Source of the DNA: Prevotella sp.
GTDB lineage: Bacteria > Bacteroidota > Bacteroidia > Bacteroidales > Bacteroidaceae
Length of the DNA: 64,000 bases
NCBI GenBank assembly: GCA_016286585.1
Contig: JAEETC010000003.1
Location: forward strand, 1 to 64,000
Direction: 5' to 3'
The notes beneath the pieces were generated by a model, which was not told where the DNA came from, did not search any database, and saw only the letters and a program-made list of their open reading frames with translations. Both the position numbers and the translations under genes were made by a program. Shown here in pieces: positions 49,531 to 50,150 of the stretch. Numbering within the stretch: position 1 is the first letter of the stretch; the number at the start of each line of letters is the position of its first letter.

Positions 49531-49549
49531 ATTGGAAAATTGTTCAAAA

Positions 49550-50150
49550 ATTTGAAATAGCATACATGCCTACACAAAATGGTCATTTTCGACTGAAATA
49601 CAGTGGTTTACAAAATTTGAAGCATACACTAAGTCTACATAAAGCCTACACTGAGCCTACATAAAATCAGCCATAATTAGGTTTTCAAGTGGCTTACGTG
49701 TCATGGTTTGGACTATGTAAAGTCCTGGATTGAAGGCTTTGCGTACATTGAAAGGTTAGACCTTCGTGCGAAATTCTCTCGAGAATTTTAGAGAAAGGAT
49801 GGGGGTGACTGGGAGTTTACCCTAACTAAACCTCAAAATTCTCGAGAGAATTTTACTCGCACCCTTAGGGTGTCTGCCTCTGTCAATACATTTTCATGGG
49901 ACTTTACTGACTGGTAAATCCCCGTCATCTGCGAACTATCTGCGTTATTTCTGCGACATATCTACGACGTCATCGTCACACTTTTGTCTAATTTTACCCC
50001 ATTTTGTGTAGGCTCAGTGTAGGCTTTATGTAGGCTCCATGTATGCTTGAGTTTCTAAAAACACCTTTAAAATAAGGTCTTTTGAGCGATTTTATGTAGG
50101 CATGTAGGCATTTTGCAAATTTATGTGCAATAACTTTGATTTTTGAAATT
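49550..50150. repeat. Nested palindromic (MITE-like) repeat element with 11-nt tandem units
   Basis: Left AAGCATACACTAAGTCTACATAAAGCCTACACTGAGCCTACATAAAAT vs right ATTTTGTGTAGGCTCAGTGTAGGCTTTATGTAGGCTCCATGTATGCTT; inner AATTCTCTCGAGAATTTT / AAAATTCTCGAGAGAATT. Confidence 0.8.

Follow-up and report, generated by a model that had tools for sequence, protein, structure and literature searches.

Opposed arrays of 11-nt iterons dispersed in rumen Prevotella: a probable initiator-binding site of a BT4734-primase/VapE-helicase

The closest described systems are Rep/ori of the staphylococcal pathogenicity islands (SaPI) and SCCmec Cch2/ori, in which a self-loading initiator helicase is paired with iterons; in the SaPI Rep helicases, the C-terminal domain recognises the origin iterons (PMC7581432). 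Among dispersed repeats, the BrickBuilt MITE of Porphyromonas gingivalis is likewise intergenic, scattered, found in Bacteroidales and composed of internal tandem repeats with inverted ends, while 23-nt repeats, IS5-type ends GAGACCTTTGCA and variable target duplications are its own (PMC4596501). The BT4734-like archaeo-eukaryotic primases (PMC5862659) are the primase family of the gene found beside the element described here, and the part of that paper on which we draw names no origin or iteron partner for BT4734. No prior description of the element was found in the open-licence papers searched. It is a widespread, previously unnamed element of rumen Prevotella, with copies scattered far from the gene of the enzyme. 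On balance we consider it an initiator-binding site that most likely serves a BT4734-primase/VapE-helicase as replication origin and control region, as judged from its sequence and by analogy with the systems above.

The window analysed is a 64,000-nt stretch of a Prevotella sp. genome that is assembled in 338 contigs and 90.6% complete. The lipoprotein-like genes flanking the element were taken for paralogues in the original prediction, and their similarity (26-28% identity, E 2e-8 and 3e-10) agrees with this. The element consists of the following parts:

49547..50122, no strand: whole element, from outer arm to outer arm
49547-49580 and 50089-50122: outer inverted arms, 79%
49560..49574, minus strand: left outer pair, TGTAGGCATGTATGC in minus-strand reading, two units 8 nt apart
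49621..49664, minus strand: left inner array of four 11-nt iterons of TGTAGGC/TGTAGAC/TGTATGC type
49771..49789, no strand: central palindrome 1, AAATTCTCTCGAGAATTTT
49835..49853, no strand: central palindrome 2, AAAATTCTCGAGAGAATTT, 65 nt (register) from palindrome 1
49928..49966, plus strand: second 11-nt array, one-sided, TCTGCG/TCTACG, also in the copy at C203
50007..50046, plus strand: right inner array of four 11-nt iterons
50094..50109, plus strand: right outer pair, ATGTAGGCATGTAGGC

The four-unit 11-nt arm with an inverted counterpart, which had been predicted from the sequence, corresponds to the two inner arrays: the best 44-nt inverted match within 49547-50122 covers 39 of 44 positions, compared with a mean of 26.3 and a maximum of 30 in 200 dinucleotide shuffles. 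These arrays of TGTAGGC-type units are opposed, with about 340 nt between them; the right-hand units (TGTAGGC/TGTATGC) start at 50007, 50018, 50029 and 50040, and on this side 55 nt lie between the last inner and the first outer iteron. The units of the second array, TCTGCG at 49928, 49939 and 49950 and TCTACG at 49961, fall within the right arm. Self-identity of the arms is highest at lags 11 and 22 (0.65-0.81; 0.09-0.37 at the remaining tested lags). The outer and inner inverted arms of the prediction were recovered as well, the inner ones being the central palindromes (AATTCTCnnGAGAATT), which are 19 nt long, 100% complementary to each other and exactly 65 nt apart, each a near-perfect dyad in its own right. 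A long inverted repeat might instead act folded as a single strand, as a structured RNA or a recombination hairpin, and the predicted single-strand fold of the element (-115 kcal/mol vs -54.9 ± 5.5 in shuffled sequences, z -10.9) fits such a role. However, a score of this kind is expected of any long inverted repeat, Rfam covariance models gave no match to the element, and direct repeats at an 11-nt phase with unconserved spacers indicate duplex DNA rather than a folded strand, which makes this explanation scarcely probable.

One anatomy, namely an 11-nt period, mirror arms and an outer pair, recurs with varying unit sequences across 99 loci. The units are ATGTAGGC or ATGTAGTT in class A, to which the window element (ATGTAGGC) was assigned, ATGTC in class B, GTAGA/TAGTAG in class C, and TGTCACC or CACCC in class D, with GGTGGTT and others as further units. 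Among these mutually related loci, 91 of 198 element halves had a lag score of 0.70 or more, 85 of the 91 at lag 11 or 22 (controls, 1 of 198), and left/right inverted identity had a median of 0.85 within a locus versus 0.61 when the two arms came from different loci. The 65-nt palindrome spacing was kept in 90 of 91 paired loci. With regular expressions that were picked after inspection of the arrays, inner array and outer pair were most often separated by 55 nt (class A) or 66 nt (class B), which is 5 or 6 x 11, and the step within the outer pair was 8 or 7 nt; the same expressions failed to retrieve the phased arrays or outer pairs of class D and of some class C loci. The distance from palindrome to array is free to vary, from about 20 to 230 nt. 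Such a fixed helical phase, kept where the sequence itself is not conserved, points to duplex DNA occupied by a protein complex.

A gene encoding a BT4734-like primase and a VapE helicase (the replicase) lies beside the element in approximately 22 of 80 public loci, about a quarter, and such cassettes also occur at several loci of the window's genome and its relatives. At the public loci the replicase starts approximately 100-680 nt from the element centre and always reads outward. The domains found at the cassettes are PF08800, PF05272 and PF18291; the last marks an HU-like gene, often divergent on the opposite side of the element (several of the replicase loci) and missing beside some cassettes. 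The remaining loci, including that of the window, are solo, with the replicase not nearby. No replicase match was found anywhere in the 64-kb window; an iteron array adjacent to an initiator gene is thus a trait of the family and not of the window copy, which is a solo element without adjacent replicase.

Of 16 replicase sides, 12 have a TAnnTTTG promoter motif 46-56 nt beyond the outer pair, compared with none of 11 HU sides and 1 of 49 solo sides. The fixed distance of the outer pair from the replicase promoter suggests self-regulation. The same spacing, measured from the outer pair to -7, would suit a purely regulatory operator, its iterons allowing the replicase or some other regulator to act on promoters close by, with no part in replication. 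We regard this as quite unlikely: solo copies retain both arms and the palindromes, yet the promoter spacing is seen on just that one solo side; the large two-armed structure is more than an operator needs; and the neighbouring enzyme is a primase-helicase.

To relate the iterons to their candidate reader, cassettes were grouped by iteron class and replicase identity was compared within and between classes. The classes were separated with an AUC of 0.999 by the C-terminus (634-704, 71 residues), 0.985 by the N-terminus (1-62, 62 residues) and 0.870 by the helicase core, although the rows share ancestry and, given the value for the core, some of this co-variation could stem from the replicase tree itself. 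Iteron class co-varies with the replicase termini, and the predicted reader is most likely the C-terminal winged helix. The element had been proposed to be protein-binding and not a terminator; helical-phase iterons in a fixed geometry, candidate protein termini that track them and the lack of any terminator-like site in the window element all point the same way.

The HU-like protein was also considered as the iteron reader and was rejected, since its sequence does not follow iteron class (identity 0.61 within and 0.57 between classes, no separation). This bears on a further explanation, a centromere-like partition or nucleoid-organising site of parC/tubC type, perhaps bound by the HU-like protein. 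Arrays of 11-bp iterons in helical phase resemble parC-type sites, the HU-like gene often adjoins the element, and TubR is among the weak winged-helix structural matches of the replicase. Against these points, HU sequence does not follow iteron class, some cassettes have no HU gene, and no ParM/TubZ/ParA-type gene was noticed on reading the flanking ORFs, so a partition site appears very unlikely.

The C-terminus of the replicase is winged-helix-like in a model with a mean pLDDT of 80.6 and its elements in winged-helix order; the full-length model was poor (mean pLDDT 44). A Foldseek search of the C-terminal model against the PDB returned nothing at E <= 0.001, and its leading matches, TubR included, were weak and mostly winged helices; the phage P4 origin-binding domain ranked 25th. 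The sole solved relative by sequence is the 'vapE' chain of 7pds. Replicases of the BT4734 family with about 31-36% identity are also carried by Bacteroides plasmids and by small phage-like records (4.6-15 kb) from the human gut (H1-H12); these match as far as about residue 650, leaving the C-terminal domain unmatched. A search of viral contigs with the replicase profile yielded no confirmed match. Near the divergent VapE genes C268, C137 and C152, no 11-nt arrays were recovered by a scan whose threshold also missed arrays seen by eye (C263, C220), which makes this negative uninformative.

Solo copies were compared with the replicases resident in their genomes. In G085, each of the four solo copies inspected matches one of three resident cassettes. 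The window's genome holds three class-B solo elements, whose class was assigned before the C-terminus of C230, a replicase truncated at a contig end, was checked and found nearest to class B (0.58-0.68; others <= 0.47). C230 was accordingly dropped as a partner of the window element. No class-A replicase was detected in this genome (90.6% complete), and the ATGTAGGC iterons of the window do not recur in it as exact close pairs.

The genome-wide search proposed with the original prediction, for which a single-copy sequence would have been fatal, found related copies in the window's own genome and in many others. The core palindrome AATTYTCNNGARAATT occurs at 14 sites in 11 loci of the window's genome (reversed control, 0). 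Across 119 relatives it is patchy, being absent from most and present at 65, 58 and 32 sites in three genomes. The palindrome pair at exactly 65 nt was found in at least 118 places in public genomes, and the matches listed were all named Prevotella, Xylanibacter, Prevotellaceae, Bacteroidaceae or Bacteroidales; the pair was found in none of 2.9 million viral contigs, and the element DNA had no match in plasmid and phage collections. Within the window's genome, C203 carries a 79% copy of the element core, and the alignment of this copy with the window contains an exact 11-nt indel inside the second (TCTGCG) array. The presence of this array in the window's right arm and in the C203 copy suggests iteron replacement in progress. 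The C203 copy (L040) carries TCTGCG-related units on the left as well. G092 (L078-L084, L098-L127) has 49 matching stretches of a class whose iterons are TGTCAACCT; its palindrome and iteron modules are also found separately and in both relative orientations.

Such dispersal agrees with the term MITE-like in the original prediction, and the element might be a non-autonomous transposable element whose outer inverted pairs are terminal inverted repeats moved by a putative transposase. This description holds as far as form and spread are concerned: the element has terminal inverted repeats, no ORF and many intergenic copies (49 matching stretches in the relative G092, besides the 11 loci of the window's genome), and its solo copies lack the replicase promoter. 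At one locus, G085 has approximately 673 bp, the element included, that are missing from G019, and both ends of this segment read TACGT, a 5-nt repeat. The part concerning mobility fared less well. No transposase gene was seen beside the inspected copies, and only four insertion/deletion comparisons were readable (673 bp, 1.07 kb, 2.1 kb and about 2.5 kb), all of which comprise the element together with neighbouring DNA; no duplication was seen at the three other than the 673-bp case, so that TACGT remains a single candidate and no consistent target-site duplication emerges. Furthermore, the internal geometry is much tighter than a MITE requires, and the palindrome and iteron modules exist apart. 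Transposition of this kind is therefore unlikely to account for the element. Neither the 23-nt repeats nor the GAGACCTTTGCA ends of BrickBuilt are present in the window element.

At L040, L088, L089 and L097, the DNA that is extra relative to a relative's genome consists of the element and adjacent DNA, with a gene included at three of the four loci (amylase-like, ECF sigma-like and MGMT-like, named by eye); the elements may mark sites of gene exchange. The idea that the window locus is a hot spot for insertion was also considered, and was weakened by the syntenic G085 element, which is of another iteron class and lies in the 2.1-kb indel with other genes. In G019 and G082, replicase cassettes adjoin dnaK (identified by eye, from the sequence of its C-terminus), whereas in G085 about 5 kb lie between them (L094, L095, L085); some of what looks like movement may therefore be rearrangement.

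For the initiator-binding origin that we favour, the following mechanism may be proposed, with the C-terminal reading of origin iterons by SaPI/SCCmec initiator helicases as the analogy for loading on mirror arrays. The terminal domains of the replicase, with the C-terminal winged helix as the likeliest candidate, would bind the 11-nt iterons, and two opposed replicase multimers would assemble on the mirror-image arrays and outer pairs. DNA would be opened between the opposed complexes, near the two central palindromes, and the element would fire as an origin; where the replicase gene adjoins the element, the enzyme would also control its own gene. Solo copies would be acted on in trans, and the class-A element of the window would be active only with a class-A replicase supplied in this way. 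A bolder and doubtful extension is a transposase-free selfish system of rumen Prevotella, in which the primase-helicase cassette copies class-matched 'solo origins' in trans and iteron class switches between replicase lineages, the window copy with its two iteron types being an intermediate.

The association ties an orphan primase-helicase family that many Bacteroidales carry to a defined DNA site, and specificity becomes a readable code in the pairing of iteron class with replicase terminal domains. A further question is why solo copies occur by the dozen in some genomes and not at all in others.

Compared with the known systems, the element shares with SaPI and SCCmec a VapE/D5-like helicase with a primase and short iterons beside the gene; here too, a C-terminal DNA-binding domain may carry the specificity. 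Unlike SaPI and SCCmec, it has 11-nt phased iterons, two mirror arrays, outer pairs and palindromes paired at 65 nt, its solo copies are dispersed, no integrase was seen, and the primase is of the BT4734 family. SaPI iterons lie downstream of rep, whereas those described here are mostly upstream, with the gene reading outward. The divergent VapE gene at C263 (L039) has AGACCTCCC units just 3' of its end and a palindrome further out, and these downstream iterons give the locus a SaPI-like arrangement.
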